This document shows, in pieces, positions 1-33,456 of a stretch of DNA of 33,873 nucleotides (position 1 is its first letter; the number at the start of each line of letters is the position of its first letter). Both the position numbers and the translations under genes were made by a program. Below the pieces are notes generated by a model. It saw only the letters and a list, made by a program, of their open reading frames with translations, did not search any database and was not told the origin of the DNA. This DNA comes from a virus: positions 1 through 33,873 of the IMG/VR virus record IMGVR_UViG_3300021438_000048; one strand, 5' to 3'.

Positions 1-161
1 GTTGGTCTAAAGTCTCCAACTGTGGCTATGTAATACGGGCCACGTTTCATAATCTTACCCAAGCCTTTGGTTGTTGACCAGATGCGACCATTCTCAGAGA
101 CCTGAGAGTCAGCACCTAGCACACACCAACCATCACCTTGAATACCTACAACGGTTGACAT
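1..161 (-). CDS. Ntn-hydrolase, proteasome beta/HslV-like protein (C-terminus cut by window edge)
   Basis: Only the first 53 codons are inside the window. The protein begins Met-Ser-Thr-Val-Val-Gly, followed by an Asp-Gly loop and then LGADSQVS. Laid against the mature N-terminus of HslV and proteasome beta subunits without gaps, Ser2 falls on the catalytic Thr1, the Asp of GADSQ falls on conserved Asp17, and a Lys in GKIMK lies within two residues of Lys33. The downstream YYIATVGDF resembles the second beta strand of that fold. If Met is removed, Ser would be the N-terminal nucleophile; no propeptide is present, as in HslV. The gene starts directly after the TAA of the TOPRIM gene with no spacing, so it belongs to the replication operon. 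A role in proteolysis during infection is inference. Actinobacterial hosts often carry proteasomes. The active-site residues farther along are outside the window, so activity cannot be judged. Confidence 0.7.
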   Translation of the reverse strand, partial: MSTVVGIQGDGWCVLGADSQVSENGRIWSTTKGLGKIMKRGPYYIATVGDFRP

Positions 162-797: not shown

Positions 798-1017
798 CGT
801 TGAACCCCTTTATGTTTTCTTTCGCCTTAACTAATTCATACACATCACCAACAACATTACATACTAGGCAGTTATATACCTGTATATCTAGGTTGTAGGC
901 TGCGCTTGCGTGTGCGTCGTCGTGTATTACACACTTGCAAGCAACCCAACCGTGCCTATCCTTTACATCTACACCGTAGTGTGTAAGGATGGACGCTAAG
1001 TCAGGTTTATTCTTGAT
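652..1017 (-). CDS. DNA primase zinc-finger part, probable ATC start
   Basis: The open frame encodes an N-terminal primase zinc-binding domain. Counting from the proposed start, the ligands are C29-x2-H32 and C50-x2-C53, with the family's HDD and AS residues between them and GDVYELV after it. The basic C-terminus (RRYVPSWKRG) resembles tails of actinophage primase fragments. The frame is closed by a TGA at 1026-1024, and no ATG, GTG or TTG occurs before the zinc ligands. The first canonical start, a GTG at 843, would delete the whole finger. A GGGTGA Shine-Dalgarno-like element lies six bases before an ATC codon at 1017, which gives a 121-residue protein with a normal N-terminus for this family. 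An ATA at 1023 is the alternative. A frameshift from the upstream nuclease gene or a sequence error are other explanations. It overlaps the TOPRIM gene by 146 bases. Confidence 0.75.
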   Translation of the reverse strand: MKNKPDLASILTHYGVDVKDRHGWVACKCVIHDDAHASAAYNLDIQVYNCLVCNVVGDVYELVKAKENIKGFNDVKRKATQLANGRSAKILQVTQRGDSLLPTGARNKPASRRYVPSWKRG

Positions 1018-1360
1018 TGTTATTCACCCATTGATCTAGTGTTTGTACTACCCAAGCCTGATCTAGGCCTGCGTTACTGCGCTTTACTATTACATAAGAT
1101 GGTGGTGCATAATCTAAGCCACGAGCCTTTGCATAATTACTTGCTTCAGTTGTAGCCTCACGCCAGAACTGTGGCAAATCTAATTTAACTCTAGCCTTTA
1201 ACTCAAATATCATTGGCTTACCTGCTACAAAACAAACGATATCTCCTTCATCATTTGATCCAGCCTTAGATAATCTTTCTGCTAATAATCCTTTTGATCT
1301 AAGCCACTTGAGGATTCCTGTCTCAAAGGCTGCGCCTTTACGCTTGCCATAACTAGACAT
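1007..1360 (-). CDS. PD-(D/E)XK nuclease, Holliday-junction-resolvase-like
   Basis: This 117-residue protein has the layout of a small PD-(D/E)XK endonuclease: a Lys/Arg-rich start (GKRKG), E13 on the first helix, D40 in EGDIVCF, and the E53-L-K55 pair in FELKAR, followed by Gln64 and a helical region. Archaeal Hjc-type resolvases and similar actinophage enzymes show this spacing. It probably resolves branched replication or recombination intermediates before packaging. Its start overlaps the stop of the preceding gene by eight bases, and its own stop lies inside the start of the primase zinc-finger gene. Substrate specificity cannot be read from the sequence. Confidence 0.75.
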   Translation of the reverse strand: MSSYGKRKGAAFETGILKWLRSKGLLAERLSKAGSNDEGDIVCFVAGKPMIFELKARVKLDLPQFWREATTEASNYAKARGLDYAPPSYVIVKRSNAGLDQAWVVQTLDQWVNNNQE

Positions 1361-1835: not shown

Positions 1836-2029
1836 TAACTGGCACTCTTGTCCCCTCTGAGGATTCGTATTGCCCATTCCATACCAGCGTTAAGGCCATC
1901 GCCCCACTCATCTGTTGGATTAATTTTTGCCGCTTCAATCTTTTCTATAAACCTATTGATCTCAACCTTAAGTTCAGCAAGGACTAACTCCTTTACTCTG
2001 AACTCAACATCCATATCGTCAGTCGTCAT
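1835..2029 (-). CDS. Small acidic helical protein, unknown
   Basis: This 64-residue protein begins MTTDDMDVEF and overlaps the helicase gene by 11 bases. A longer frame reaches 2089 but would run through helicase codons, so the shorter start is preferred; an ATG five codons later is also possible. The protein is mostly charged helix (VKELVLAELKVEINRF) ending in a segment with GDGLNAGMEWAIRIL. Small proteins ending in a similar GMEWAIRI-type helix are common in actinophage replication modules, but I know of no assigned function. Its stop is shared with the next start as TAATG. Confidence 0.65.
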   Translation of the reverse strand: MTTDDMDVEFRVKELVLAELKVEINRFIEKIEAAKINPTDEWGDGLNAGMEWAIRILRGDKSAS

Positions 2030-2888
2030 ACTTGTGGGTCCAATCCTGCACGTAATTATGGTTCCTGTTTGGAACACTATAAGTCGCAATTATATCACTA
2101 GTTCTCTCGTTATGTATCATCATACGAGATGCGTCTGCCCACAATGTGACGAACTGATCGCCAGTTGCAGAGTTCTTAGCAAAGCGATTCTTTACACAAG
2201 CAATTCTAAATTCTCCCGTGTCAGGTACTAATGCCACAGTTAAAATCATTTCAGGTAATTGAGATATCTTTCCCTGAATAGACTTACGACTTGGTGGCAA
2301 GTCAGGTTTACCTTCCGCCTCAGAGGTATGGTGTAGTAGAACTACGCCAGCCTCAGTCTCACGAGCGATATGGTGCATAGCCTTTGCGATCTCTCGCAAA
2401 CCTGACCATTCATTCTCGTGCATAGACACAACGTTCATAGCATTATCTACAATAATCATATGAGGATATTGCCCATAAGATTCTGCATATGCTCTGATTG
2501 CTAAGTCAATTTCATCTAGCGTTGGGCTAGGAGAAAAGTCAAATTGTAAATGATCTATTGATTGCAACTCGTGAGTATAAAACTCTTGACCTGCACCGTT
2601 AGCAAAGGCTTCTTCAACTGTAGAAACTTTATGCCCAGAGATCATTGCTGCTGCACGTATGGCTGTTGTATAGCCATCAGTATCTGCTGATATGTACAGC
2701 GTTGGCACCTTCATTTGCACCGCCATCCATAATGCAAGTAAAGATTTACCTGCGTTAGGTGCGCCAGCAATCATTGTCAATTGCCCCCGTCTGAACCTAA
2801 TCCCTTCCGCTTGTAGCGTAGGGAATAGGTCAGGCAGTAGTGCGTAATCATTAGTGCTTTTCGCTGCCGCTTGAGTTAAGGACAGCAT
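2019..2888 (-). CDS. DnaB/RecA-fold replicative helicase
   Basis: The 289-residue ATPase has Walker A GAPNAGKS at 42-49, Walker B MIIVDN at 144-149, LLHHTSE at 184-190 (the sensor histidine region of DnaB/KaiC-type ATPases) and a basic KNRFAKN segment at 233-239 in the place of the arginine finger. There is no N-terminal primase-interaction domain of the DnaB type, so it is a compact RecA-core helicase like those of many actinophages. It should unwind DNA at the fork with the split primase encoded downstream. A recombinase-type RecA function is less likely. No clear Shine-Dalgarno precedes the ATG. Confidence 0.82.
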   Translation of the reverse strand: MLSLTQAAAKSTNDYALLPDLFPTLQAEGIRFRRGQLTMIAGAPNAGKSLLALWMAVQMKVPTLYISADTDGYTTAIRAAAMISGHKVSTVEEAFANGAGQEFYTHELQSIDHLQFDFSPSPTLDEIDLAIRAYAESYGQYPHMIIVDNAMNVVSMHENEWSGLREIAKAMHHIARETEAGVVLLHHTSEAEGKPDLPPSRKSIQGKISQLPEMILTVALVPDTGEFRIACVKNRFAKNSATGDQFVTLWADASRMMIHNERTSDIIATYSVPNRNHNYVQDWTHKYDD

Positions 2889-3273: not shown

Positions 3274-3933
3274 TTATTTTATGTTTGCTAGTGGGTCGTA
3301 AACTTGTGCTAGTTCTCCACCAGTAGCGTAGCAGTAATCCTTCACGCCACAAGTGGAACAGGCCATACCTATATTAGGTAGGAATATTTCATTCTCTACA
3401 CCACGAGAGAATTGTGCGAATAGTTCAGTCAGTAGTGGAATAGTCCAGCGGTTTAAACCACTAGCCTCTAGGAACTGAGCCTTCCGTGCTGAGTAGTAGT
3501 AACCTCGTGTTGGTCTTGTACCAAACTTCATCTCCATTGCAGAGGCATAGATGCCCAACTGTAATGATGAGTCAGGTGTGTAAGCACCAGTCTTGAAGTC
3601 AACTACAACTAATTCACCAGCAGATGTAACTGCTATTAGGTCAGCAAATGCTTTAACAAAGACATCACCAAACTGTGAGTTCAATTCAATTTCAATACCA
3701 GGGACACCTTGAGGTGATTCCCAAATGGTCAGACCTGAATCTCTCCAAGCCTCAGTAAAGGCAACAAACATTTGTTTGCCATTGGTATCCCACCAAGCCT
3801 TGTTCTCTTTGTCGGGATTAGCATTGGTGGCTCTGCCACCTCTGCGCCAGTCAACAGGATTTGTTTTAGACTTTGCTTCTGTCTCAGCAATTGCTTCTAG
3901 GAAAACTTCATCCCAAATCTTTTCAAGATTCAC
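3274..3933 (-). CDS. Cas4/RecB-like exonuclease, catalytic C-terminal part
   Basis: The protein holds the PD-(D/E)XK core of a Cas4/AddB-type exonuclease: an acidic IEIEL strand, the FAD motif, VVVDFKTG, the QLGIYAS helix (Gln and Tyr typical of RecB nucleases), and near the end C-x2-C-x5-C in CSTCGVKDYC. Those three cysteines are the usual C-terminal ligands of a 4Fe-4S cluster; the fourth ligand is normally near the N-terminus and is absent here. The missing N-terminal module is encoded separately at 4452-4643. The GTG start is chosen because GGGGG sits six bases ahead; a TTG at 3951 is in frame but lacks this. It overlaps the preceding gene by 11 bases. Likely role: end resection or recombination. 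Confidence 0.82.
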   Translation of the reverse strand: MNLEKIWDEVFLEAIAETEAKSKTNPVDWRRGGRATNANPDKENKAWWDTNGKQMFVAFTEAWRDSGLTIWESPQGVPGIEIELNSQFGDVFVKAFADLIAVTSAGELVVVDFKTGAYTPDSSLQLGIYASAMEMKFGTRPTRGYYYSARKAQFLEASGLNRWTIPLLTELFAQFSRGVENEIFLPNIGMACSTCGVKDYCYATGGELAQVYDPLANIK

Positions 3934-4114
3934 TTGATTCCCCCGCCACAATTTTCTTTGCTGTCTCTAACCCTTTAATTATATCAGCATTTGTTTCTTT
4001 ATCAATCTCAGTCTGAATTAGTTTGCCTAATGCTAAGCGCATCACTACCTCAGTCTCAGCAAAGGCTACTCTAAATGCCTCTTGTCCTACGATCTTTGAT
4101 CTACGTGAACTCAT
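3923..4114 (-). CDS. Small helical protein, unknown
   Basis: The 63-residue protein starts MSSRRSKIVG at an ATG that overlaps the stop of the preceding 44-residue gene as TAATG. It is predicted by eye to be nearly all helix, with a basic start and an acidic end (AGESSES). It is one of three small genes placed between the two parts of the Cas4-like nuclease. No motif recognised; a role as an adaptor of that nuclease is only positional speculation. Confidence 0.65.
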   Translation of the reverse strand: MSSRRSKIVGQEAFRVAFAETEVVMRLALGKLIQTEIDKETNADIIKGLETAKKIVAGESSES

Positions 4115-7953: not shown

Positions 7954-8040
7954 TTAGATTAAATTAAGTGAATCAAACTTGTCTATCTGATCGTCTATTG
8001 TTGATGACGGTTCAGTCGTGCAATCACCGTCTCGTAACAT
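7954..8040 (-). CDS. Possible 28-residue acidic peptide
   Basis: An ATG overlaps the stop of the glycine-rich protein as TAATG and opens a 28-codon frame (MLRDGDCTTEP to SLNLI), ending just before the Shine-Dalgarno of the 733-residue gene. The same coupling is used by many real genes here, which is the main support. It could instead be a spacer with a chance frame. Confidence 0.35.
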   Translation of the reverse strand: MLRDGDCTTEPSSTIDDQIDKFDSLNLI

Positions 8041-8864
8041 TAAACTGCGTAACGAACTATTACTAAGCCGTCAACGCCTGCTGCGCCAGCACTGGCACCT
8101 GACTGATTTGAATATGGGTTTGATCCACCACGTCCGCCAGAACCTTGTGAGCCATAACCTGTACCATTAGAACCACCATTAACACCTTGGTATAAATCTT
8201 GTCCACCGCCACCACCTGCTGCATAGTAACCGCCAGAACCAGTTGATGTTGCAGTAGCCCAAGTTGAATATGTATTTGTACCAGGACCACCAGATCCTGA
8301 ACGAGATGGTCCAACGCCACCTGCAATACCTGCTCCTGCGGATCCACCACCACCAAGACCAAAGATGTAAGTGTCTCCGTTGTAACCTTCTACTGGGCTA
8401 TATCCACCTTGGTTACCTGTACCGCCACCACCGCCAGATCCACCAGATCCGCCGTTACCGAATCCACCACCAGTGGATGAATAAGAATATGATCCACCTA
8501 TAAATGATGAGTTATTACCTTTAGTTCCATTTGGTGCAGAGCCAGTTCCGCCTGCTCCTGCTCCACCAACAGTTACTGTGTAACTAGTACCGCTAGTAAA
8601 TGATAAAGATGAGAAATAACGCAGACCACCAGCACCACCACCATTACCGTAGTTACCGTATTGTCCACCACCACCACCAGCAATTACCAACATTTGTGCA
8701 TTGTTAATATTTGCTAATGCAGTAAAAGTTCCACCTGCAGTAAATGTATGATAGGTATATCCACCAGTAGTTACAATAGTTCCGCCAGTAGCAAATGGTC
8801 CCACATTATTAAAAAGACCAAAACCTCTAACAGAGGCTCCGCCTCTAGATCCTAGTAAAGGCAT
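8040..8864 (-). CDS. Glycine-rich adhesin-like tail protein (G domain only)
   Basis: The 274-residue protein has a short start, then the module GGYTYHTFTAGGTFT and QMLVIAGGGGG, followed by about 180 residues extremely rich in Gly (up to runs of five) with Ser, Tyr and Asn, ending GLVIVRYAV. The same module forms the C-terminal half of the proteins at 14313 and 15650. Such domains resemble the polyglycine-II receptor-binding adhesins known from T4-like gp38; the comparison is by composition only. It lacks the N-terminal beta domain of its relatives. Likely exposed at the tail tip for host recognition. Confidence 0.7.
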   Translation of the reverse strand: MPLLGSRGGASVRGFGLFNNVGPFATGGTIVTTGGYTYHTFTAGGTFTALANINNAQMLVIAGGGGGQYGNYGNGGGAGGLRYFSSLSFTSGTSYTVTVGGAGAGGTGSAPNGTKGNNSSFIGGSYSYSSTGGGFGNGGSGGSGGGGGTGNQGGYSPVEGYNGDTYIFGLGGGGSAGAGIAGGVGPSRSGSGGPGTNTYSTWATATSTGSGGYYAAGGGGGQDLYQGVNGGSNGTGYGSQGSGGRGGSNPYSNQSGASAGAAGVDGLVIVRYAV

Positions 8865-11837: not shown

Positions 11838-12283
11838 TAGATTACTCCTGCCTCTTTCATCGCCTTAGCACTTTGCTTGGTGATTTTTTCTGCCGCTGGC
11901 ATAGCACCAGCGTCAAAAGCAACGCCCAGTTTTTCACTGGCTTCTTTGGCTTCATTAATCTTTTTCATAGAAGTTCCTGCTGGCTGGATACCTTCTGCTC
12001 TAGCATCACGGTATGCTGATAGTTCAGCATCCCATTTCTTTTGGGACATAGAATCTGCCCGTCCAGCATCACCTGTATTTAGTTCTAGTGTACAAACCTT
12101 GCAAGCAAAGCAGCCGTCAGTATAAGTGCGATGCTTATAGTGATCTGAGAAAATGTCTTCGGTAATAAAAGGTTCTGGTTGAGTTGCTTCGCAGTTTGAA
12201 CAACCATAGAGAGTCGGGATTGATTCGTACTTTTCATTAAAACCCCATTCTAAAACTTTTGATATGTGATCGCAGTTATCCAT
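11837..12283 (-). CDS. Zinc-binding protein, unknown
   Basis: The 148-residue protein has C4, H6, C28-x2-C31 (YGCSNCEA) and C58-x2-C61-x2-C64 (GCFACKVC), enough for one or two zinc sites in the first 65 residues. A helical second half follows with KKWDAELSAYRDARAEGIQP and the phrase EASEKLGVAFDA. Similar two-part proteins are frequent in aquatic phages near glycosyltransferases, with no known function. It overlaps the glycosyltransferase stop by eight bases. Confidence 0.7.
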   Translation of the reverse strand: MDNCDHISKVLEWGFNEKYESIPTLYGCSNCEATQPEPFITEDIFSDHYKHRTYTDGCFACKVCTLELNTGDAGRADSMSQKKWDAELSAYRDARAEGIQPAGTSMKKINEAKEASEKLGVAFDAGAMPAAEKITKQSAKAMKEAGVI

Positions 12284-13337
12284 TTTTAAGTTTCTCTTTC
12301 ATAAAATCTATGTTGCGTAAGATACGTTGTTGCTCAGGGCCATTGGCCTTAGCAGCGGATTCAGCAAAGGTTAATGCTTCTTGGTAATATCCGAGATTAA
12401 ACGCAGAAACTGCTGCGAGGTCGTAGGCTTTCCAATCCCATACAGCGGATTCGTAGCAGTAGTGGACTGAGCGAGGTAGTTCCATAATGTTAACAGAGGC
12501 ATCTAAACAGGCTGTCCAATCTTTCCTTCTGTAAGCATCTATCGCTAAGCCATACCAAGATTCACCTTCTTTAGGTAGAATCTCTATTCCCTTTTGGTAC
12601 CAAGCAGTTACTTCTGCTTCTGGTTTCTTTAGATAAAACGCTGCTTCACCAAGCCAGCGGCAAGTGGCTGCTTGTTCTACATCCCACGCTTTATCTTTAA
12701 GTTCTAGTGTGCGCTGTCCTGCTCGCATAACATCTTCCCACCTAGAGTGGAAATAATATTCACGAGTCATATATGTCCACATACGTGGATCATCTGGGAA
12801 CTCTTTAACACACATCTCAAGTAGGGGAAGGTATTGCCCACGAGACTTTGTGTTATCTGGTTCGTGTTTGATTACGGCATCAAAGATATTGCAGGCTTTT
12901 GCTTCACCTTCGCCGTACCAAATTTGTACTTCGTGACAAGGATACTTCCAGTTCCATCCCTGTCTTGAATGGAGTCTGTCTCTTTTCCATTGGCTACCAG
13001 TATCAATTGTAATCCAACCAAAGTCAGATCCTGGTATCCATTTGTCACGAATCTTTTTAAAGAAGTTCTTTTGAGGAACTTCATCTAAATCTAATATCAC
13101 ACAAACATCTGCATCTTCTGGAACTAATGCAAGTGCTGCGTTTCTTGCTGTGTCAAAGCGCCAAGGCTTTACACTAATCTGATGAACTGTTATTCCAAGT
13201 TCTTTGAGTCTTTCTTGAGTACCATCGGTACTACCAGTATCAGCAACAATCCGATAATCAGCACCCTCAGTAGCCTTAGCATACCTTTCAACGTGTTTTA
13301 TCTCATCTTTCGCAATTGAGTAAACTGCAATTTTCAA
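12276..13337 (-). CDS. GT2-family glycosyltransferase with TPR-like C-terminus
   Basis: Residues 1-150 form a GT-A domain: MKIAVYSIAKDE start, ADTGSTDGT at 32-40 (sugar-nucleotide contact), RNAAL and the metal-binding DLDE at 83-86, then the acceptor-side HEVQIW. Residues about 190-345 are helical repeats of TPR character (AWDVEQAATCRWLGEAAFYL, GESWYGLAIDAYRRKDW). It should transfer a sugar to a protein or glycan acceptor in the cytoplasm. The Thr/Ser-rich collagen-like fibre or adhesins encoded upstream are possible targets, but this is only an inference from proximity. Start overlaps the HNH stop as ATGA. Confidence 0.82.
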   Translation of the reverse strand: MKIAVYSIAKDEIKHVERYAKATEGADYRIVADTGSTDGTQERLKELGITVHQISVKPWRFDTARNAALALVPEDADVCVILDLDEVPQKNFFKKIRDKWIPGSDFGWITIDTGSQWKRDRLHSRQGWNWKYPCHEVQIWYGEGEAKACNIFDAVIKHEPDNTKSRGQYLPLLEMCVKEFPDDPRMWTYMTREYYFHSRWEDVMRAGQRTLELKDKAWDVEQAATCRWLGEAAFYLKKPEAEVTAWYQKGIEILPKEGESWYGLAIDAYRRKDWTACLDASVNIMELPRSVHYCYESAVWDWKAYDLAAVSAFNLGYYQEALTFAESAAKANGPEQQRILRNIDFMKEKLKNG

Positions 13338-14312: not shown

Positions 14313-15650
14313 TTATACTAAGTATCTAACAATAATTATACCTGAACCGCCGTTACCACCTGCAGTGATATTTCCACCACCTGCTCCACCGCCACCAGTG
14401 TTAGGAAGACCAGAGTTAGCATTGCCTGCACCACCGCCGCCATAACCACCAGCACCTGCTGATGCACCTTGTATTGTGGAAGAACCACCGCCACCACCTG
14501 CATAGTAAACAGTTCCGCTTACATTATGACCAGTTGTTGTTGCAAGACCCCAAGATGAATATGCAGATGAACCTACGCCACCTGCACCAGATTGTGAACC
14601 AACTGCTGTTTGTCCTGCAGCACCTGCACCACCACCACCACCTGCTGGGTATGGAGATGCGAAGCCAGCAATACCATTACCACCAGCATTACCTTGTCCA
14701 GCAGTTCCTGCGCTTCCTGCGTTTCCTGGATAACCACCACCACCAGATCCACCTACGCCTGAACCGTAACCACCACCATCACCTTTACCACCACCTATTA
14801 CAGTAGTTAAAGATCCAAATTGTGAGTTACCACCAACAGAACCGCTTGCATTTGAACCACCTGCAGCACCTGCTGCACCAACAGTACAAGTATAAGAAGT
14901 TGCGCTAGTTAATGCTTGTGCGGTAAAACCTAATAAACCACCTGCGCCTGCACCACCAGCGCCATTGCCACCACCGCCACCGCCGCCGCCTGCTACAACT
15001 AATACATCAGCAGTTAATGCTTTAAGCGGAGTAAATGAACCTGAGTATTTGAAAGCGTGGTACCAGTAAGTACCATCAGTAGTAATGACATCTCCACCTG
15101 AAGCGTATGGGACTGAAGTATTTTGAGTGCTACTATTAGAGATGCCGTATAGGTAGAAGGTTGAGAATTCTTGAATTGTTTGTCCGCCACCATACGGTCT
15201 AATGGTTATAGATGTTATTGCGGCAGTAACTCCACTAAGAGTACCGCTAAAAAAAGCGTAACCAGTAGTTCCATTGTTTTCTGCTACTGCATCTGCAGAT
15301 AAACCTTTAGCATTACTAGATGTATAATTAGGAAGATAAAATTCTCCATTGCTAAAAATGCTTGCAGTTGCATTTGCGCCATCTGTTTCGCCAATATACA
15401 TATCAGCGGCAGAACCACTGGTATTGCTTGCAGCACTAGAACCAGTACCAAATGCTGTACGCCAAGAATAACCAGATGTAGTTGAATTAAACTGAACACC
15501 CATTGATTGTCCAACTGAAGCATTATCAGTTCTGCAAGTGTAAACAACTTTTAAATCAGTAAAGGTTTGAGGGATATTAGAGAAGGTGATGCTAGATGCG
15601 CCACCTGATCCTACGGTTTGCTTAGCGATAAGCGACATTGTTGTTGCCAT
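14313..15650 (-). CDS. Two-domain adhesin-like tail protein (beta domain plus glycine-rich domain)
   Basis: The 445-residue protein has an N-terminal beta-sandwich-like domain (about 1-170) with the phrases ITFSNIPQTFTDLKVVY, MGVQFNSTTSGYSW and ITSITIRPYGGG...FYLYGIS. A linker with YWYHAFKYSGSFTP and ADVLVVAGGG follows, then some 220 residues with long Gly runs, ending IIIVRYLV. The N-terminal module recurs in the genes at 15650 and 16962, the glycine-rich one at 15650 and 8040. Likely a receptor-binding or fibre-tip protein. The start shares TAATG with the preceding stop. Confidence 0.72.
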   Translation of the reverse strand: MATTMSLIAKQTVGSGGASSITFSNIPQTFTDLKVVYTCRTDNASVGQSMGVQFNSTTSGYSWRTAFGTGSSAASNTSGSAADMYIGETDGANATASIFSNGEFYLPNYTSSNAKGLSADAVAENNGTTGYAFFSGTLSGVTAAITSITIRPYGGGQTIQEFSTFYLYGISNSSTQNTSVPYASGGDVITTDGTYWYHAFKYSGSFTPLKALTADVLVVAGGGGGGGGNGAGGAGAGGLLGFTAQALTSATSYTCTVGAAGAAGGSNASGSVGGNSQFGSLTTVIGGGKGDGGGYGSGVGGSGGGGYPGNAGSAGTAGQGNAGGNGIAGFASPYPAGGGGGAGAAGQTAVGSQSGAGGVGSSAYSSWGLATTTGHNVSGTVYYAGGGGGSSTIQGASAGAGGYGGGGAGNANSGLPNTGGGGAGGGNITAGGNGGSGIIIVRYLV

Positions 15651-16960
15651 TAGTTTGCGTACCTCACAATCACAATACCTGAACCGCCAGTACCGCCATA
15701 ATAAATGTTATAACCTCTAGTTCCACCACCGCCTGAACCAGTGTTAGCAATACCATTTGTTGCAGAACTAGTATTTAATCCACCAGTTCCACCACCACCA
15801 GCACCGCCTGAACCAACAGCACCGTCACCGCCACCGCCACCACCGCCTGCGTAGTATCCAGATACACCAGTTGAAGTTGCAGTTGCCCAAGAAGACCAAG
15901 TATTTAAACCTGGACCACCGTTTGTACCACCACTACCGCTTGTTGCATTAACACCTTGACCGCCAGCACCACCGCCACCAGTTGCTGCATAAGCAGAAGC
16001 ACCCGCAATGTTACCGCCTTTAAAACCATAGCCAGTAGCGCCACCTGAATTACCCTGTGTTGCAGAACCACCCACACCAGATCCGCCATTGTATGCAGCG
16101 CCGCCGCCAGAACCACCGTTAATAGGAGTAGGATCATTATTGTAAGCACCGCCACCGCCACCGTTGGAAGTTATATTATCAAATACAGAATTTCCACCAA
16201 CACCACCAGCAGTAATTGCACCACTTGTTCCACCAGCACCTACAGTGCAAGTGATACCAACACCTGAAGTTAATGAACGACCTGCTTGATATGAAACACC
16301 ACCTGCTCCACCACCGCCACCAACATAGGCTCCGCCACCGCCACCGCCTGCAATAACTAATACATCTGCTGTTAATGCTTGTGATGGAGTAAAGGTTCCT
16401 GATGAAGTAAAGACGTGATATGTGTAATTAACATCGTGGTAAATAGTTCCACCACTTGCTTTAGCGGCCCAGTCTGGAAGTGCTTTGATACCGTAAAGAG
16501 TAGCAGTAGATCCTGAACCAAAAGAACCTGAACTTAATTTTAAAGTTATTGAATTAATTATTGCGGTAGAACGCCAAGTATTTGCATTGGCACTTACTAA
16601 AAAATTAGAAACAGAACCTCTTGAAATAACTGATTTGTATGTTGTATTGTTTGAATAATTTTGAATATTAATTATATAAGGCATTGGAGAAGAAGTGTTA
16701 ACGTTACCTACATAACAATAAGTGTATCCAGTATTACGATTTGAATAAGCACCGCTACCGTCTGCATATATATTCGTATTTGTGTAATTGCCAGCAGTAT
16801 CTCCATTAAATTGCACACCAACTTCTTGTGAAGAAGTAGTGCCAAATAAATTAGTAACTAAAACTAAGTCAGTATATGTAGATGGAATTGATGACATTAC
16901 TAAAGTTGATGTTCCTGAAAGAGTAACAGTTGCTAAAGGTACATAAGTTGTGGTTGCCAT
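15650..16960 (-). CDS. Two-domain adhesin-like tail protein (paralogue)
   Basis: The 436-residue protein has the same architecture as its downstream neighbour. There is an N-terminal domain (LVMSSIPSTYTDLVLV, VGVQFNGDTAGNY, WRSTAIINSITLKLSSG, LYGIKA), then YTYHVFTSSGTFTP and ADVLVIAGGGGGG, and a Gly-rich C-terminal half ending IVIVRYAN. The sequences have diverged clearly, especially in the Gly-rich loops, as expected for receptor-facing segments. The two genes are coupled by TAATG. Assignment as adhesin is by composition and context. Confidence 0.72.
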   Translation of the reverse strand: MATTTYVPLATVTLSGTSTLVMSSIPSTYTDLVLVTNLFGTTSSQEVGVQFNGDTAGNYTNTNIYADGSGAYSNRNTGYTYCYVGNVNTSSPMPYIINIQNYSNNTTYKSVISRGSVSNFLVSANANTWRSTAIINSITLKLSSGSFGSGSTATLYGIKALPDWAAKASGGTIYHDVNYTYHVFTSSGTFTPSQALTADVLVIAGGGGGGAYVGGGGGAGGVSYQAGRSLTSGVGITCTVGAGGTSGAITAGGVGGNSVFDNITSNGGGGGAYNNDPTPINGGSGGGAAYNGGSGVGGSATQGNSGGATGYGFKGGNIAGASAYAATGGGGAGGQGVNATSGSGGTNGGPGLNTWSSWATATSTGVSGYYAGGGGGGGDGAVGSGGAGGGGTGGLNTSSATNGIANTGSGGGGTRGYNIYYGGTGGSGIVIVRYAN

Positions 16961-17926: not shown

Positions 17927-19335
<1,409 letters not shown>

Positions 19336-19665: not shown

Positions 19666-20703
19666 TCAGGAAGCGTTGATTGAAGATGATGACTCAATAC
19701 GAACCAATGCAGCCTCACGGTAACGAGCGAAACCAAGTACGCCGTACCAGCCGATTGGACGGAAACGCATCAACTTGTCAACAATTGGACCGAAGATTAC
19801 GTGTGGTTCTTCAGCAACTGCTTCTGCAAGTGCTTGCTTACCAGCAACTAGAGTACGGAATACACGAACTCCACCTGTTGAGTAAACGTAGTTTGAAGCA
19901 CCCCAAGTACCTGTTGTACCTGTTGAGCCTGAACCGTCAGTTGTGTTGAATAGACGTGGTGACTCTACGAACATTGCGCCTTCGTAAGTACCGATAGTTC
20001 CTGGCCAGAACTCTGCTGCACCAGTCTCTGAGTACTTATGATCGTCACGCCATCCGCCTGAGCCAGTCTCAGCACGAAGATCGTGTGAAACTTCTGGGTG
20101 GATACCACACCAGTAGAACTCGCCTTGGCGAGGAACTACCTTGTTAGCACGTAGTTTCGCTACTGCTAAACGGATATCACGAGACTTGATAACAGAACCT
20201 GAACCGATAGAGGTTTGTGTAGTTCCGTTTGTGTATGAACCAGCATATGTGCTGATTGCTGAACCTGTTGCGCCAGTTTCTGCAATTACGTTTGAACCGA
20301 AGTTCAATTGACGTAATGCAACTGAGTCTAGAGAGTCAGCCATATTGAAAGCGATGATGTCAGCAATTGCTGGATCAACGTCAGACAATGAGAACAATTC
20401 TAACTTGCGAGTTGCAAGAGAAGCGTTACCGTATTCATTAAGTGTTACAGAAACTGTTGTTGTGTTTCCAAGTGCTACTGCATCTGGATCAGTTGTTTCT
20501 GTAAGTGGTGTTGTTGCTTGTGATAGATCTGTGTAGATTTGGAACGCTACAGAAGATCCTGGCATTGCCTGTTGTACTGGGCGCTTATCTGCGACATCAC
20601 GGATAAGAGGAACAGCACGTAGTGCAAATTCAACATAACGATCATAAGCGGTCTGTACTAAAGAAGTACCTAACGAACCACTTGAGGTATCGGTATATGC
20701 CAT
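19666..20703 (-). CDS. Major capsid protein, N4-gp56-like
   Basis: The 345-residue protein shows the layout of the N4-gp56-type HK97-fold capsid family. It has an N-terminal helix (VQTAYDRYVEFALRAVPLIR), then RPVQQAMPGSSVAFQIYTD and TTVSVTLNEYGNASLATRKL, a helical spine region, RDIRLAVAKLRANKVVP, YWCGIHPEVSHDLRAE, and a C-terminal GWYGVLGFARYREAALVRIE. It would form the icosahedral shell. The neighbouring upstream gene is scaffold-like, and a terminator follows directly, a common way to set high capsid expression. An AGAGGTG ribosome-binding site precedes the ATG. Confidence 0.9.
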   Translation of the reverse strand: MAYTDTSSGSLGTSLVQTAYDRYVEFALRAVPLIRDVADKRPVQQAMPGSSVAFQIYTDLSQATTPLTETTDPDAVALGNTTTVSVTLNEYGNASLATRKLELFSLSDVDPAIADIIAFNMADSLDSVALRQLNFGSNVIAETGATGSAISTYAGSYTNGTTQTSIGSGSVIKSRDIRLAVAKLRANKVVPRQGEFYWCGIHPEVSHDLRAETGSGGWRDDHKYSETGAAEFWPGTIGTYEGAMFVESPRLFNTTDGSGSTGTTGTWGASNYVYSTGGVRVFRTLVAGKQALAEAVAEEPHVIFGPIVDKLMRFRPIGWYGVLGFARYREAALVRIESSSSINAS

Positions 20704-23710: not shown

Positions 23711-26700
23711 TTATCCTAACTTCATAAACACGCTATTGATTACTGGTTTTAAACGAGGTTCATTTTCTGCTAATGCCATCAAATAGTTTTGCCAGTTTTG
23801 AACTTCGTCTTGTGTGGCATATCCCTGAATACTTAGCATATTGTATTCAGACATAATTCCTGCGTGGCGTTGATAGTCACCCATTAACGCTTTAACCATC
23901 TTGGCTTGTTCGTGCTTTGGCTCTGTATTTGGATTAGCAAATATTTTTTGTAATTGATTGTACGCAGTTTGAGCGTTAATCTTACCCTCACCATTTGTGT
24001 AGTCTTTGTACCAAATAGGGTAAAGGTTCTTCATCTTTGTCATTACAGAAGACCATCTATCGTTTTCTTCTTTTTGAGCATAAGTGTCAAAGTTGGCTTT
24101 GGCCGCTGTAATAATTTGATTGTGTAGAGTTCTGTCTTTTGCAATAACTGCATCGCCTGCAGCGATGTAAAATTGTCTTAGTAGTTCTTCTGGTGAACGT
24201 TGTTCACGTAAGTGCATACTTACTAGATCATTATACACTTCACGATCAGACTCATTCTTAGCATTATCCTGTGGGATAAGGAAGAAGTAACCATTTGCTA
24301 CGCCAGATTTGTAATCAAACTTATCTTTATTTTGTTTAATAAAGTCAACGGTTTGTTGAATATAAGGGTATTTAACACCTGGAACTGTTGAAGATGTTTT
24401 ACTTACTGTATAGGAAATAGCGCTATCTCCGTGCTTGCCCATAAACTCAAGAAGGGCGTCTGCATAATTACCCTTTTGTTTTACAAGTTTCCAGAACTCG
24501 TCACGGAACCCTGGGTCTTCTTGTTCAACTCTTGGAGCAAGTGGTGATATAAGGTTTAATGCTGCTTTTACCAATAGAACTGAGCGAGCATTATTTTTAA
24601 TACGATCTACAAACGCTTGTTGTTCAAACTCTGTAGCATCTGGACCAGGTACTTGACCGTGATAATAAGCAGCGGCCAGGGCTGATGCTGTTGCGTTTGC
24701 AAGTGCTTTGTTTTTCTCGTTTGGTGTTACTGCTGCCCATAAAGACTTAGACCAAGTGGCTGGGTTAACAGTATCCCAGAATCCACGTTGATAAGAGATA
24801 TCTCCGATAGTGCCTTTAACAATTGGCTTAGTTGCTGGGAATAGATCCGCAATTAAGTTACCGCTTACTGCAACGAAAGGTGATACACCTGGAGTTTGTA
24901 GTTCAGGCAATACGCTCTTTAAAGAAATTGTGCTTCCTTTTGCAGAGATAGGTAATCCAGTTACCATTGGAATACCATATGCTGCTAAAGCACCTTGGAA
25001 AGATTCACCTAAAGCACCTACGCCTGGAAGATAAATATATTTGTTGCCGTTGTCATCCTCTTGCATAAAGCCAGGATCAGATAAAGCGTGTTCTGCTAAT
25101 TGATAAAAGCGCATACCAGATGAGAATAAAGGTGATGCGTAACTCGTATCTTTTAATGTGTTATATGCACGACGTAAAGCCTGCTCTTGAGCAAAGTAAA
25201 ATGGCAGGAAGTTACGTGCTAGTTGAGAAAATTGATTACGTAAAGCAGTATTGTGGATTTGAGGCAACATTGAATAAGAAGCCTGAGTTTGTGCTATACG
25301 TAATGCTTGGTCTTCCGTCATTCGTTTTGCTGTAACTTGAGGGATTAATCTTCCATAAGCCTCTGCTACGTGCATCATATACAAAGGTTCACGAGCAAGA
25401 CCATTAATAATAGGGTCAATTGCTTTTCTAAATCCAAGGTCAGTAATCTTGCTTATCCAACCTTTTTTATCTACATAAGGTTGTAGCATAGGTCCAGCAA
25501 CTGCTGCAGGGAAAGAATTTTTATTTGCAGATATTCTTTCGCTGATATCTTTCAAGTCTGACTTTGTACCATTTGATATGTTTTCAGCAATATCACGAAG
25601 GAATGTTCCATCTTTACCGATAAACATACCAAGTGTTGCATCTACACGATCTGCTGCAAATGTATATACATCAGCACTTGATTGTACGTCAGTCCAGCGA
25701 GTTAATGAATTAAGTTCTTTTTTATATGATTCGTACTCACCGCTGATTGTTTTCATCATACGGTCATACTCACTAGCAATAAGACTGTCACGAAATTCTA
25801 GATATTGTTTGTGTTGTGCTAGTTTGTCAATATCATCTTCTAATTGCGCCTTAGGTGTTTTAATAAACTTATTAAAGCGTTCAACCGCATCTGCTGATAT
25901 GTTCTTATGCGCTGCTTCATTAGCAGCGACGTTTATATTGTTTACATAACGAGGTACATAGTGAATATCAGATGCTGAATAGGTTGTGTATTCAGGCAGA
26001 TCCTTGAACATAGCGGTGTTCTTTTGGATCTGATAGTAATAATGTGCAGCCTGATTCATTTGATACGCAGTTGATGCGTCAGTACCGTGACCAGTTGATA
26101 CAGCCTCTGAAAGTAAATGACCTTGGTTAGCAATAATTAATCTAGTTGCAAGTTCCATTTGCTCATCTGGCAACATCTTTGCTGCAAAGTTTAAACCTTT
26201 ACGCTTAGCCTCTTGAAAAGCAGGCCATCCAACTGTAGCAAATTCTGGACCTAGACCCATATGGATTCCAAGTGCTGACATTGCTGCAGGCAAAATATGC
26301 TTTGCTTCACCAGGAGTTAAGTCGTAGTTAGCCTTTGCTGCGGCTGTAGCCAACTTTGCTTTGAATGTATTGAATACACCAAATCGTGCAAAGGTAGGGA
26401 TAATTTCAGCAGCGGCTACACGTAAACCAAAGCCTGTTGTAGCAAGTGCTAAAGGTTTAAAAACTTTATTTGTGTACCAGTGGGTAACCCATTCATCAAT
26501 TTGACCAACGTGTTTTTTGTATTTACCAGCATCACGTACAGCCTTTTTAATTGCCATAAAGTCTGGAATATCAAACATATCACGAGCGTGATGAGAAACA
26601 ATACCGCCAACCTTAGGACCAGCAGCAGTTTTATACTCGCCAATATTTTTACCTAGTGGACTAACTCCGTAAATCTGAGTACCTACAACTGGTTCGCTAA

Positions 26701-29426: not shown

Positions 29427-31259
29427 TCAAACTGGTTCACGTCTGAGTACGCCAGCACTTAAGTTGGCCTGCCCAGAAGAATTAAGTCCTGCTAGTAATG
29501 TTTGTAATGCGGGACGACCACCAGGAGCCATACCTTGTTGTCCAGGTGCTACGCCTTCCATACGACCAGATGCTTGTAATCCTGGTGGAAGATTAGGTTC
29601 TCCAGAAGGGGCCTGGCCTGGGGCGACAGCCTCACCAGCGGTACTCATCGCTTCTGGAGAAACTTCAGGTTGTGGTTTAGGAGCAAATGCTTCCTGCACA
29701 ACTTCTTCAATAGATTTACCTTTTTGACGGCCATTAATTACTGTAGCCATTGCGGTAAGAATTTGTGAAGGATCTTGTCCTTGCGCTGCCATAGCAGGTA
29801 GCGCTTGAGCATAACCAGAAACTGCTTGAATTAAAGAGTCACGCAGTTGTTCAATTTCAATCTTTTCTTCTTCCATAGTGACGTTAATTTCCCAAGGCAT
29901 CTGACGACGTAGGAAGTCACGAGAGATTAATTTATCTCCACGAGCCTGAAGACCAAACACTAATGCTCTGTTTGGATCTAGTCCTGCAATTAAGCCGTAG
30001 GTAACATCACACCAGTAGTCGCCATCAATAGCGTCTTTTGGTTTGTAAGTGATCTCATAAGGAGCGCCAGCGTTTACGCCACGTACTTCCTTCTCAACAT
30101 CACCAAATAACTTCTCGTCCATCATAAAGCAAAGACGCATTACGTGACGGAATGATTCTGCTAGAACTGCTTGTGCAGTTTTAACTTGTGTATCAAAGCC
30201 ACCCATAAGGGCTTGAACACCCTTACCAGTAATAATAGAACCTGATTGTTGTCCTAGTCGTCCTTCAGGATAACGTGAACCAACACGCATTTCTTGATCT
30301 AGGTTTGCGTTCTCTTGGAAAATTCCTGCTGGAATGTCTAATGCAACACGGCGGATCTTTTCTGGATTAGCAGAACGAATAGTTGCGTCTGGACCAATCT
30401 CAAGTACGTTAACATCTGAAGGTAAAGCGAATGGTGCTTGTACAGATTTTTGTGCTGCTTCAAGTGCTAATGTTGCAAAGCGTGAGCGAGCAACCTGTAC
30501 CCACATAACATCATCAAATTGACCACGTTGGTGTTCATCTGAATCTACACCTGGGCGAACTGCAATAACTACTTGGATCTCACCAAGATCGTTCTTGGCT
30601 TGAGCAAGGATTAAGTTGTTGCGCTCTGGTAGGAATAATAAAGTTTGATCTTTGTCGTGATAGCGGTACATCTCAAGAGTACGAGTAGATTCACGCTTCT
30701 CATAAGGTCCACGAATTTGTGATTCAAACTCTGGGAACTCGTTGCATAGTTCACGTACTGTCTTTGTGTAGCGCTTTGTGTAAGAAAGTAATTTGCCGAA
30801 GCGGTCCCATTCAGGATATGCACCGATAGGTGAATCCAGACGGATCATTGGGCGATTGTTTTCAAAATCTGGCTCAATAATAAATGGCAACATACCAAAT
30901 GTGATATAGCGATCTGCACCTGAGTACATCGCTGTTTGTAGGTTGCAAGAGTCACGGTAACCTGCAGCGATCATAGATCTGATATCTGCACGTTTTCTAG
31001 CACGATCAGATGTGCTGTTTGTTGTCATACAAGAGAATGTTGGAAGCGGAGCAATTACCTCAGCAACGTCACGGGCAGCAACATCAATAAAGTTTGCCAC
31101 CATAGGCTTAGGAAACTCATCAGGGAATTGGCCAGGGAATACCTGTTGAATGTTACCTTGACGGATTGAAAGCAGGTCAGAGTAACGAGAGTCACGCATA
31201 CCATACTTCTCACGTAACTTCTTTACCTTCTCGCTGACTTCTAGAATCTCTAGCGCCAA
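29427..31259 (-). CDS. Portal protein
   Basis: The 610-residue protein is the right size and place for the dodecameric portal through which DNA is packaged. Recognisable stretches are FPKPMVANFIDVAARDVAEV near 50-70, the FGMLPFIIEPDFEN/GAYPEWD wing region, GSIITGKGVQALMGGFDTQV in the stem/crown area, and a Pro/Gly/Gln-rich disordered C-terminus from about 510. It starts with TTG; GGGGG sits about six bases ahead, and it overlaps the terminase stop by ten bases. The next in-frame ATG (codon 21) would remove a conserved-looking N-terminus. Confidence 0.88.
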   Translation of the reverse strand: MALEILEVSEKVKKLREKYGMRDSRYSDLLSIRQGNIQQVFPGQFPDEFPKPMVANFIDVAARDVAEVIAPLPTFSCMTTNSTSDRARKRADIRSMIAAGYRDSCNLQTAMYSGADRYITFGMLPFIIEPDFENNRPMIRLDSPIGAYPEWDRFGKLLSYTKRYTKTVRELCNEFPEFESQIRGPYEKRESTRTLEMYRYHDKDQTLLFLPERNNLILAQAKNDLGEIQVVIAVRPGVDSDEHQRGQFDDVMWVQVARSRFATLALEAAQKSVQAPFALPSDVNVLEIGPDATIRSANPEKIRRVALDIPAGIFQENANLDQEMRVGSRYPEGRLGQQSGSIITGKGVQALMGGFDTQVKTAQAVLAESFRHVMRLCFMMDEKLFGDVEKEVRGVNAGAPYEITYKPKDAIDGDYWCDVTYGLIAGLDPNRALVFGLQARGDKLISRDFLRRQMPWEINVTMEEEKIEIEQLRDSLIQAVSGYAQALPAMAAQGQDPSQILTAMATVINGRQKGKSIEEVVQEAFAPKPQPEVSPEAMSTAGEAVAPGQAPSGEPNLPPGLQASGRMEGVAPGQQGMAPGGRPALQTLLAGLNSSGQANLSAGVLRREPV

Positions 31260-33163
31260 AATGTACCCCCACTTGCTAACTTCTCTTGAAGTTTCGCATA
31301 TTCTTCTAAGTTAACGACCTGGCGTTTGCGTAGATCGTTTGGTGTAAGGAATGGGTTTTTAACCCAACTTCCGCCGTATGCCCCAGACTGGTTGATGTAA
31401 TCTCGCATTTGAGTTTCAGCAAACCAGAGGGCCATAGGTCCGTCTTGTTTATTTTTAGTTCCTGCTGACCAAGTAATCAACTGCTCTATCAGAGCCTTGA
31501 TATGTTCATTATCTGTTCTTGGTAATTCTAAAAGATTGTTCTTAAGGTGCTTGCCTTGTGAATCAACTGATCCGAACAACGGTGCCATAGATGCAACACC
31601 GAACTCAGCATCCATCTTGTTTGCACCTGTGTAGTGCTGAACCAAACGAATACCTCGTGTAGCAAGAAACTTGTTGATTTCTTCATCTTGGGTTAAGAAC
31701 AACTGGAAAGCGTTTTTCTCAATTACCCAAACTTTAGGATTGTACTTTTCTGTCCAACTGAAGATTAATTCTCTAATAGCCTGTGGTGTAGGTGCTGGCA
31801 TACGGCTTGCGTCTAGCAAGTAACGTTTGCTATTTGTACGATCTCCAGCAAGTACTACTGAGAAAGTATCACCACTCATAGCAGGGTCCATAGAGCAGAC
31901 GATGTATTGAGAGTTCAAAGATTCTGGGTGACCAGGAGCGCCTGGGATAAGCGGACCTACAGATCGCATACCTGCGACTGATCCTCTTACACACTCTGGT
32001 GAGAAGACTGCGGTAGATTCAACATCTTGTTGTTGATATACCATCGCCCAAGTTTTAGGATCTAAAACTCCACGACGCTTCTTAAGGTTGACTCCATCCC
32101 AGCGAGGATATAAACCATCCTCATCTGGTGGCGTAGGATCTGTTGCCCAGGGGCGATCAGATTTAGGCCATAAAGTTTTCCACTTAGTTGGGTCGTCATC
32201 AAATTCTAAAACGGCTGGCATAGCCAGATATGTCCAAGGAGACTTGTCATCTGGATAACGCTCTGCGTTACGCATCTCTCGGTATAGATCCATAGGATCT
32301 ACACGAGTTCCTACTACTAGGATTTTTCCAGTAGGACCAACACGAGTTAAAACTTCCTGTTGAATCCAACGGATCTGCTTCTCGTACTCATTAGCGTTTG
32401 CCAGAGTGACACAGTCGTCAAGGATGATTAGATCTGCACGTGCGCCGTAGATCTGACCACCAATACCCAAGGCTTGAAGTGTTGGATCTTTTTCTCCTGA
32501 GTCACGCTCTAGGTAGATAGCGTCTTGGGTCCACTTCTCAGAGGTAGCCTTGTAGCCCTCTACTGGCGCATAGCGCCTTTGAAGATCAATATAGTTTGGA
32601 TGGGTAAGTCTTTGCTTAACCGCATATAAAAATTCTTTGGCCATTGCCTGAGTCTTGGAAACTAATTTGATACGTACATTGGGATCTGTTGCAATCCGAT
32701 AGGTAACGTAGTCAATTGATACTGTCATTGACTTGGCGTGTTCTGGCGGCATATTCACCAGTACGTAGTTTGGCATCCCTGGCTCGTAGGTCATATTCTC
32801 GTGGAGCCAAGCAGGTTTACCTTCTTGAAGAAGGCTGATGATGTTCCTCTGATGAGGGAAGGTCTCAGATGCTAGGTAAGTCTTACGGAAATCTTCAAAT
32901 GAGATAGAGGCATCTTCAGGTGCGATGACCCCCTTACGATGCCTCACCTCACGAGCAAGGTCAATCGCTTTTTTGAAATCTGGGTCTGAAGATCTGTAGT
33001 ACTCATAGGACTTGACTGACTTACCAACCGCCCGACAAGAGTCCTCAACCGTGTAGCCTTGGTTGATTAGGTCAATAATCTTTTGCTTGGCTTCCTGGCT
33101 GGAAAGGGAAGCCCCTGGTGCTAACTTAAATCTGTTGTTATCTGATGGTTTAGATTTAGACAT
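31250..33163 (-). CDS. Large terminase with N-terminal helix-turn-helix
   Basis: The 637-residue packaging motor begins at an ATG with GGAG/GGGA upstream; a longer frame to 33289 would run into the hairpin leader and looks unrelated. Residues 21-70 form a helix-turn-helix of the type found in small terminases or fused to large ones (DLINQGYTVEDSCRAVGKSV, then YRSSDPDFKKAIDLAR). The ATPase has a Walker A-like PPEHAKS at 139-145 with Ala in place of the usual Gly, and Walker B DLIILDD at 244-250. The RNase-H-like nuclease has SMDPAMSG with D425, IEKNAF with E482, and an Asp/Glu-containing DGPMALWFAE near 574. No separate small terminase gene is visible. Confidence 0.92.
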   Translation of the reverse strand: MSKSKPSDNNRFKLAPGASLSSQEAKQKIIDLINQGYTVEDSCRAVGKSVKSYEYYRSSDPDFKKAIDLAREVRHRKGVIAPEDASISFEDFRKTYLASETFPHQRNIISLLQEGKPAWLHENMTYEPGMPNYVLVNMPPEHAKSMTVSIDYVTYRIATDPNVRIKLVSKTQAMAKEFLYAVKQRLTHPNYIDLQRRYAPVEGYKATSEKWTQDAIYLERDSGEKDPTLQALGIGGQIYGARADLIILDDCVTLANANEYEKQIRWIQQEVLTRVGPTGKILVVGTRVDPMDLYREMRNAERYPDDKSPWTYLAMPAVLEFDDDPTKWKTLWPKSDRPWATDPTPPDEDGLYPRWDGVNLKKRRGVLDPKTWAMVYQQQDVESTAVFSPECVRGSVAGMRSVGPLIPGAPGHPESLNSQYIVCSMDPAMSGDTFSVVLAGDRTNSKRYLLDASRMPAPTPQAIRELIFSWTEKYNPKVWVIEKNAFQLFLTQDEEINKFLATRGIRLVQHYTGANKMDAEFGVASMAPLFGSVDSQGKHLKNNLLELPRTDNEHIKALIEQLITWSAGTKNKQDGPMALWFAETQMRDYINQSGAYGGSWVKNPFLTPNDLRKRQVVNLEEYAKLQEKLASGGTFWR

Positions 33164-33456
33164 AACTATCCCATCTCCATTAGGGCATCCGTCAGTGGAT
33201 GCCTTTAGGGGTATTCGCAAGGCCTTCAGCCTTGCTCTCAATTGGCAGCGAGTGTGGGGCGCAGCCCCTAAACGAGCCTTACGTCTCACCTGGCATCGTT
33301 CGCTTAAGGCTCACTCTGCCGTGAGCCGTACCGTTGGGAAGTTTCTATTGCGCTGTAAACTTCCCCTACTATATACTAAGGCGGGAAATTTGCCTTTTAT
33401 CCCGCCCTAGAGCGTGTGATTTACACCACACTGTAAATTATCAGTATTTTATACTG
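33164..33456 (-). promoter_or_regulatory. Structured leader: array of perfect hairpins upstream of the terminase
   Basis: No supported gene. Perfect inverted repeats follow one another: 33184-33203 (GGCATCC), 33217-33235 (GCAAGGC), 33256-33268 (GGGGC), 33308-33327 (GGCTCAC), 33336-33365 (GGGAAGTTT), 33380-33406 (GGCGGGA), 33419-33438 (ATTTACA), 33442-33456 (CAGTAT). Two longer pairings compete with these: TTTAGGGG (33204-33211) with CCCCTAAA (33265-33272), and GAGCCTTA (33274-33281) with TAAGGCTC (33305-33312). This could be a regulatory leader RNA, a packaging recognition site, or both. Confidence 0.6.

Follow-up and report, generated by a model that had tools for sequence, protein, structure and literature searches.

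A proteasome-type Ntn protease with a presumptive serine nucleophile behind the primase gene of a freshwater actinophage, and a zinc peptidase in the same gene slot of its relatives

Gene content of the protease locus

The analysed DNA (hereafter the window) is the IMG/VR record IMGVR_UViG_3300021438_000048, a linear fragment of 33,873 bases, and its left edge cuts a minus-strand ORF (161..3, open at the edge) that translates as MSTVVGIQGDGWCVLGADSQVSENGRIWSTTKGLGKIMKRGPYYIATVGDFRP. The ORF belongs to the same gene block as a primase, a Holliday-junction resolvase-like protein and other replication genes, with the head genes farther along the window (Table 1). A preceding reading of the DNA made from its letters alone (the sequence-only reading) had the gene transcribed with replication genes: the gene does lie directly behind the primase, the protease ATG following the primase TAA with zero gap, and co-transcription with the primase block seems probable from this spacing.

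Table 1. Features of the window and, where a locus prefix is given, of related phage records.
Feature	Position	Strand	Basis
Proteasome-type Ntn protease, N-terminal 53 codons; gene cut by left edge	3..161	-	Profile matches and orthologues L001-L004
Ser1 codon TCA, presumptive nucleophile bared by Met removal	156..158	-	Codon comparison
Asp17 codon	108..110	-	Asp in 67/72 homologues, Glu in the other 5
Lys33-equivalent codon, residue 35	54..56	-	Lys in 72/72 homologues
Oxyanion Gly47-equivalent codon, residue 48	15..17	-	Gly in 69/72 homologues
Toprim primase; stop codon abuts protease start codon	162..797	-	PF13362, E 2e-10; PHROG DNA primase, 6e-34
Holliday-junction resolvase-like protein, same gene block	1007..1360	-	phrog_244, E 1.5e-21
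DnaB-like ATPase; sole Walker A protein seen near protease, not an unfoldase	2019..2888	-	phrog_243, E 7e-70; motif scan
PD-(D/E)XK exonuclease, replication block	3274..3951	-	PF12705
Major capsid protein (MCP)	19666..20703	-	PF13252
Portal	29427..31259	-	Homology
Terminase large subunit; 43-49% identity to Streptomyces and Planktophila phages	31250..33289	-	
Small HExxH metallopeptidase, post-primase slot of relatives without the Ntn protease	L396:677-1003, L397:1653-1991, L399:3289-3609, L400:2817-3137		
C5 cytosine methylases, same post-primase slot of relatives	L398:662-1579, L400:3137-3793, L397:641-1285		

Two syntenic contigs extend the picture beyond the window. Contig L027 bridges the protease end and the terminase end over ~6.8 kb, so that the phage genome comprises ~41 kb and the truncation of the protease is an assembly edge. 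Contig L028 has the gene order of the window up to the protease and beyond, and encodes 3′ of the protease a MazG-like/DUF1599 protein, a sigma factor, WhiB, a DnaN-like clamp, terminase and portal. Because of this WhiB gene an actinobacterial host is indicated, as the sequence-only reading had supposed, in line with the kinship to isolated Planktophila phages. The nearest genome records, OX376640 and OX376641, are those of Planktophila phages LanE43AprE7 and LanE43AprF5 (39.1 and 38.9 kb; PMC10202952; here E7 and F5), which belong to the phage family of the window (~49% for portal and terminase) and encode a protease of the same enzyme family; their protease, however, has Thr1 and follows the portal, whereas that of the window has Ser1 and follows the primase. 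A literature search on the proteasome status of the host yielded nothing useful.

Other window ORFs include a glycosyltransferase family 2 protein with a TPR-like end (12276-13337; an enzyme type known from Planktophila phages too), a collagen-like Gly-x-Thr repeat protein of 354 aa (17927-18991), and three apparently related glycine-rich tail-region proteins ending in IVRY (8040-8864, 14313-15650, 15650-16960). The structural region also holds a 1475-aa protein (23711-28138) with no PHROG match, the counterparts of which in relatives are ~1500-2050 aa long and very divergent.

Family membership and fold

Taken by itself, the 53-residue fragment is only suggestive of a proteasome-type protein, with E-values of 0.0038 against Pfam PF00227 (17.3 bits, under the gathering score) and 0.01 against PHROG_1040. 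Complete orthologues are 186 aa long and 94-96% identical to the window protein over the common part, and the residues of the window protein past 53 are inferred from them. Orthologue L001 reaches the curated score of PF00227 (2e-5, 24.7 bits, cut-off 22.4) and matches PHROG_1040 at 2e-20 (2e-20 to 3e-25 across the clade with Ser1), and both profiles are matched by 11/11 full-length members. Since the full-length orthologues match both, the identity of the fragment is settled, and the window gene almost certainly encodes a proteasome-type Ntn-hydrolase.

The AlphaFold model of L001 (mean pLDDT 92.4) has the sandwich fold with both flanking helix pairs, including helices 51-60 and 72-93. Its best match in the PDB is BPH (5ovs, 5ovt, 5ovu; Z 20.9, rmsd 2.5, 172 aligned residues, 26% identity), followed by proteasome beta subunits, and Foldseek likewise placed BPH first, with HslV next. 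BPH has no known partner unfoldase; it is the product of a bacterial gene, with Thr1 and a heptameric double ring, and the window protein is likened to it at the level of the monomer model. The assignment to the proteasome/HslV superfamily made in the sequence-only reading thus agrees with the orthologue profile matches and the fold model, and the sequence past the left edge, supplied by the orthologues, contains the remainder of the Ntn fold in the model. Full-length score, N-terminal Thr/Ser with Asp17, Lys33 and oxyanion Gly, and fold are all those of PF00227.

Within the superfamily, the protein shares fold, triad, oxyanion Gly and Ser129 with HslV and prcB, but neither the HslU of the one nor the alpha subunit of the other was seen beside the protease. 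HslV identity was rejected on the score against TIGR03692 (23.5 bits, cut-off 157.75) and the lack of an HslU-like partner encoded in the window or L028, for which a host HslU could conceivably stand in, and prcB identity on the score against the bacterial 20S beta profile TIGR03690 (16 bits, cut-off 191.9), the lack of a propeptide, and no alpha gene being seen. Like PPH and AAH, the protein is a phage-borne group I proteasome homologue without propeptide; PPH, however, is ~140 residues long and devoid of helix H2, whereas the window orthologues have 186 residues and H2, so that PPH identity was also rejected (PMC8665760). For AAH, the cluster of alpha-proteobacterial and actinobacterial homologues, presumed members from Rhizobium and Streptomyces plasmids stood in as references; they fall outside the Ser1 clade (93/95).

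Phage proteasome homologues are an already known kind of protein (PHROG_1040; Fuchs 2021), a point absent from the sequence-only reading: phage-borne PPH and AAH have been described, with no Actinobacteria-specific phage with AAH noted (Fuchs et al. 2021, PMC8665760), and the PHROG_1040 “peptidase HslV family” (e.g. in DSL-LC01, Pumpernickel, Pitbull and pSal-SNUABM-04) comprises homologous single-subunit phage proteases without HslU. From these named phages the window clade differs by Ser1, by its small freshwater actinophage genomes and by its link to primase, at ~26-40% identity. No study giving a role for phage proteasome homologues was found in the literature. Relatives are encoded at no fewer than 187 IMG/VR loci, and one scan of cellular genomes for homologues gave seven distant matches, none of them actinobacterial.

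Active site and the serine nucleophile

From the letters alone, a Met-Ser start, a GADS motif spaced as Thr1 to Asp17 and a Lys near position 33-35 had been noticed; with Ser as residue 1 the Asp is residue 17, and the Lys, residue 35, aligns with Lys33 of HslV. In an alignment of 72 homologues, numbered from the nucleophile, residue 1 is Thr in 64 and Ser in 7, the columns of residue 17, Lys33 and Gly47 are as given in Table 1, Ser129 is kept in 70 and Asp166 in 66. The full-length orthologues retain Ser1 and Asp17, the equivalents of Lys33 and of the oxyanion Gly, as well as Ser129, Asp166 and Ser169, and thereby all three equivalents (Lys33, Ser129, Asp166) that the sequence-only reading had proposed to look for. 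In proteasomes, position 17 is Asp or Glu, and functions have been described for Ser129, Asp166 and Ser169 (PMC4792962).

Variants were found among the relatives. Glu replaces Asp17 in five proteases (L007, L019, L020, L023, L024) with close relatives that have Asp, and Lys-rich C-terminal tails of ~20-40 residues occur in the freshwater phage proteases L016 (221 aa), L032, L038, L051 and L056. The proteases of genomes G004 and G010 (L300, L304), with Gly at the Ser129 position (GGGG) and Asn at that of Asp166, may be weakened enzymes.

No propeptide is encoded, and the orthologues start with Met-Ser. The proteins with Ser1, namely that of the window, L001-L006 and a sister pair, L029/L030, group in a single clade (support 96/83 in one protein tree and 99/95 in another). 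The window and L002 spell Ser1 as TCA; L001, L004, L006, L029 and L030 use AGT or AGC. Because conversion between TCA and AGT/AGC needs more than one base change and passes via another residue, Ser (or Ser/Thr) has been kept by selection; Thr may have been the intermediate between the two codon sets. Judged by dN/dS values of 0.053 (L001 versus L004) and 0.075 (L029 versus L030), the clade is under strong purifying selection. The proposal of a presumptive Ser1 nucleophile is thus consistent with Thr or Ser at this position in the homologues and with the conservation of Ser1 in its clade, and a natural clade with a putative serine nucleophile, spelt TCA or AGY, is new. The Thr1Ser mutant of the yeast proteasome is functional and less efficient (PMC4792962). 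Compensation by Val46 for the methyl group lost with Thr1 was considered and discarded, as Val46 is limited to the window subclade, whereas the sister pair with Ser1 has Ala at this position.

Position of the protease gene in the phage family

Four gene positions were found in the phage family of the window, i.e. after primase (also in G001, G002, G003, G011), after portal, just after MCP (G004, G006, G007, G010), and after endolysin (G008). In the E7 clade the portal lies immediately 5′ of the protease in 79/80 loci, with a gap of 13-18 nt, usually 14-15. Among a first sample of relatives, chosen by portal alone, most had no protease near the portal, and 9 of the 10 records that reach 34 kb carried exactly one, elsewhere than at the portal, the sole exception being G005. 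The proteases of the primase slot are scattered in the protein tree: besides the Ser1 clade, that of G001 falls in another freshwater-phage clade, that of G002 is sister of the E7 type, and those of G003 and G011 belong to the AAH-like half. Several protease lineages accordingly occupy this slot, distant relatives apparently displacing one another; this and the four gene positions are new observations.

A second, independent sample, chosen by MCP, contributed six further records that reach 34 kb; the portal was present in 9/9 MCP-chosen records. The Ntn protease was found in G021 and G024 and was absent from G022, G023, G025 and G026, where a PHROG_1040 search was also empty. The 9/10 of the portal-chosen sample had suggested a near-universal core gene, but with 2/6 in the MCP-chosen sample this was abandoned; the gene is common but patchy in the family.

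From the post-portal position, a head-morphogenesis (prohead) protease trimming capsid, scaffold, portal or ejection proteins had been the first choice. The 79/80 E7-clade loci and the four records with the gene after MCP would suit such a role, an early gene position does not preclude a late substrate, and the genomes searched yielded no Clp (S14, PF00574), S49 or S78 protease above cut-off, with two sub-threshold S78 matches in G004 and G010. However, G005, devoid of the protease, has MCP, scaffold and portal that share 91%, 87% and 92% identity with their G006 counterparts and equal them in length, exactly or nearly. This loss without change in the head genes argues against obligatory head processing, as do the four further relatives without the Ntn protease and the distant xenologues in the same slot. 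An obligatory role in capsid maturation looks unlikely, and the prohead reading as a whole is now regarded as improbable.

In G005, the protease slot contains an 85-aa protein with a basic start and an acidic end (L306:16038-16292), for which family profile searches returned no significant match.

A zinc peptidase in place of the Ntn protease

In all four MCP-chosen records without the Ntn protease, a 107-113 aa protein with an HE[IL]TH motif is encoded between primase and the MazG-like gene. It matches the putative metallopeptidase family DUF6782 (above cut-off in 2/3 tested) as well as PHROG peptidase families. A search for this zincin over whole records found it in those four, in 0/11 Ntn-bearing records and in none of the E7-clade records; as its profile derives from genomes initially selected as Ntn-less, only the absence elsewhere constitutes a test. 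Across the 16 near-complete records of at least 34 kb, portal- or MCP-chosen, 11 carry the Ntn protease, four the zincin, one (G005) neither, and none both (Fisher p 0.003, uncorrected for relatedness; the records are mutually related, and the exclusion does not amount to many independent events). Closely related viruses thus carry an unrelated zinc protease in the same gene slot, which is a new observation.

A separate scan returned 51 zincin loci, with HExxH in 51/51 and an Ntn gene in 0/51 within the DNA examined around each; in most, the zincin follows primase directly or shortly and precedes the MazG-like gene. Zincin phages branch beside and around the Ntn phages in the portal tree; the best tree needs at least two changes, whereas the strongly supported branches force only one.

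In G023, G024 and G026 the slot behind primase also holds DNA methylases, and in G001 a class I methyltransferase. The slot is therefore an accessory region, possibly one of counter-defence or anti-restriction.

Proposed role of the protease

The reading we prefer, with a probability of roughly 0.6 on sequence and model evidence, is that of an accessory peptidase independent of an unfoldase. Host methionine aminopeptidase would remove Met1, and the bared Ser1 would make up the catalytic centre together with Asp17 and the Lys33 equivalent; the subunit would self-assemble, probably into a small BPH-like ring, and cut short or unfolded polypeptides with no need of ATP or an unfoldase. The target would most likely be a host or early phage polypeptide. 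As the gene shifts position, is displaced by distant relatives and is replaced by the zincin in the primase slot, peptidase activity as such seems to be selected during infection. The location of the gene among head genes in the E7 and post-MCP clades suits a late role and counts against this reading.

A phage proteasome completed by an alpha subunit or unfoldase, as envisaged in the sequence-only reading, was not borne out, neither being found in the window or L028; a motif scan of these two, with L027 spanning the gap between the window ends, revealed no unfoldase-like Walker A protein. That the phage supplies no unfoldase itself, and that the fold is that of HslV and prcB, could fit a partner of a host AAA+ unfoldase, or a subunit that joins host proteasome or HslV particles and redirects regulated degradation. 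Scores far under the HslV and prcB cut-offs and the interchange of xenologues of ~25-35% identity, unsuited to a specific docking partner, nevertheless make such a partnership a decidedly outside candidate. Less probable still, and hardly to be expected, is a protein that is no hydrolase in practice, either a ligase or transpeptidase like connectase, which demonstrates that the superfamily includes ligases (PMC8665760), or a binding protein devoid of catalysis, since hydrolysis is favoured both by the exchange with an HExxH peptidase and by the fully conserved triad.

The accessory peptidase may be part of a broader pattern, put forward here tentatively and at somewhat less than even odds, in which the phage family needs some peptidase behind primase (a “peptidase slot”), and several Ntn lineages and the HExxH zinc peptidase supplant each other, for instance as agents against one and the same host polypeptide, possibly a defence one; in the window lineage, serine would have replaced threonine as the nucleophile.

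The Ser1 clade bears on the question of why proteasomes use threonine, serine being kept here by selection. The phage family offers natural gains, losses and moves of a protease and its exchange for a zinc peptidase, and as the isolated Planktophila phages E7 and F5, of a cultured freshwater actinobacterium, carry a relative of the enzyme, its role is testable.
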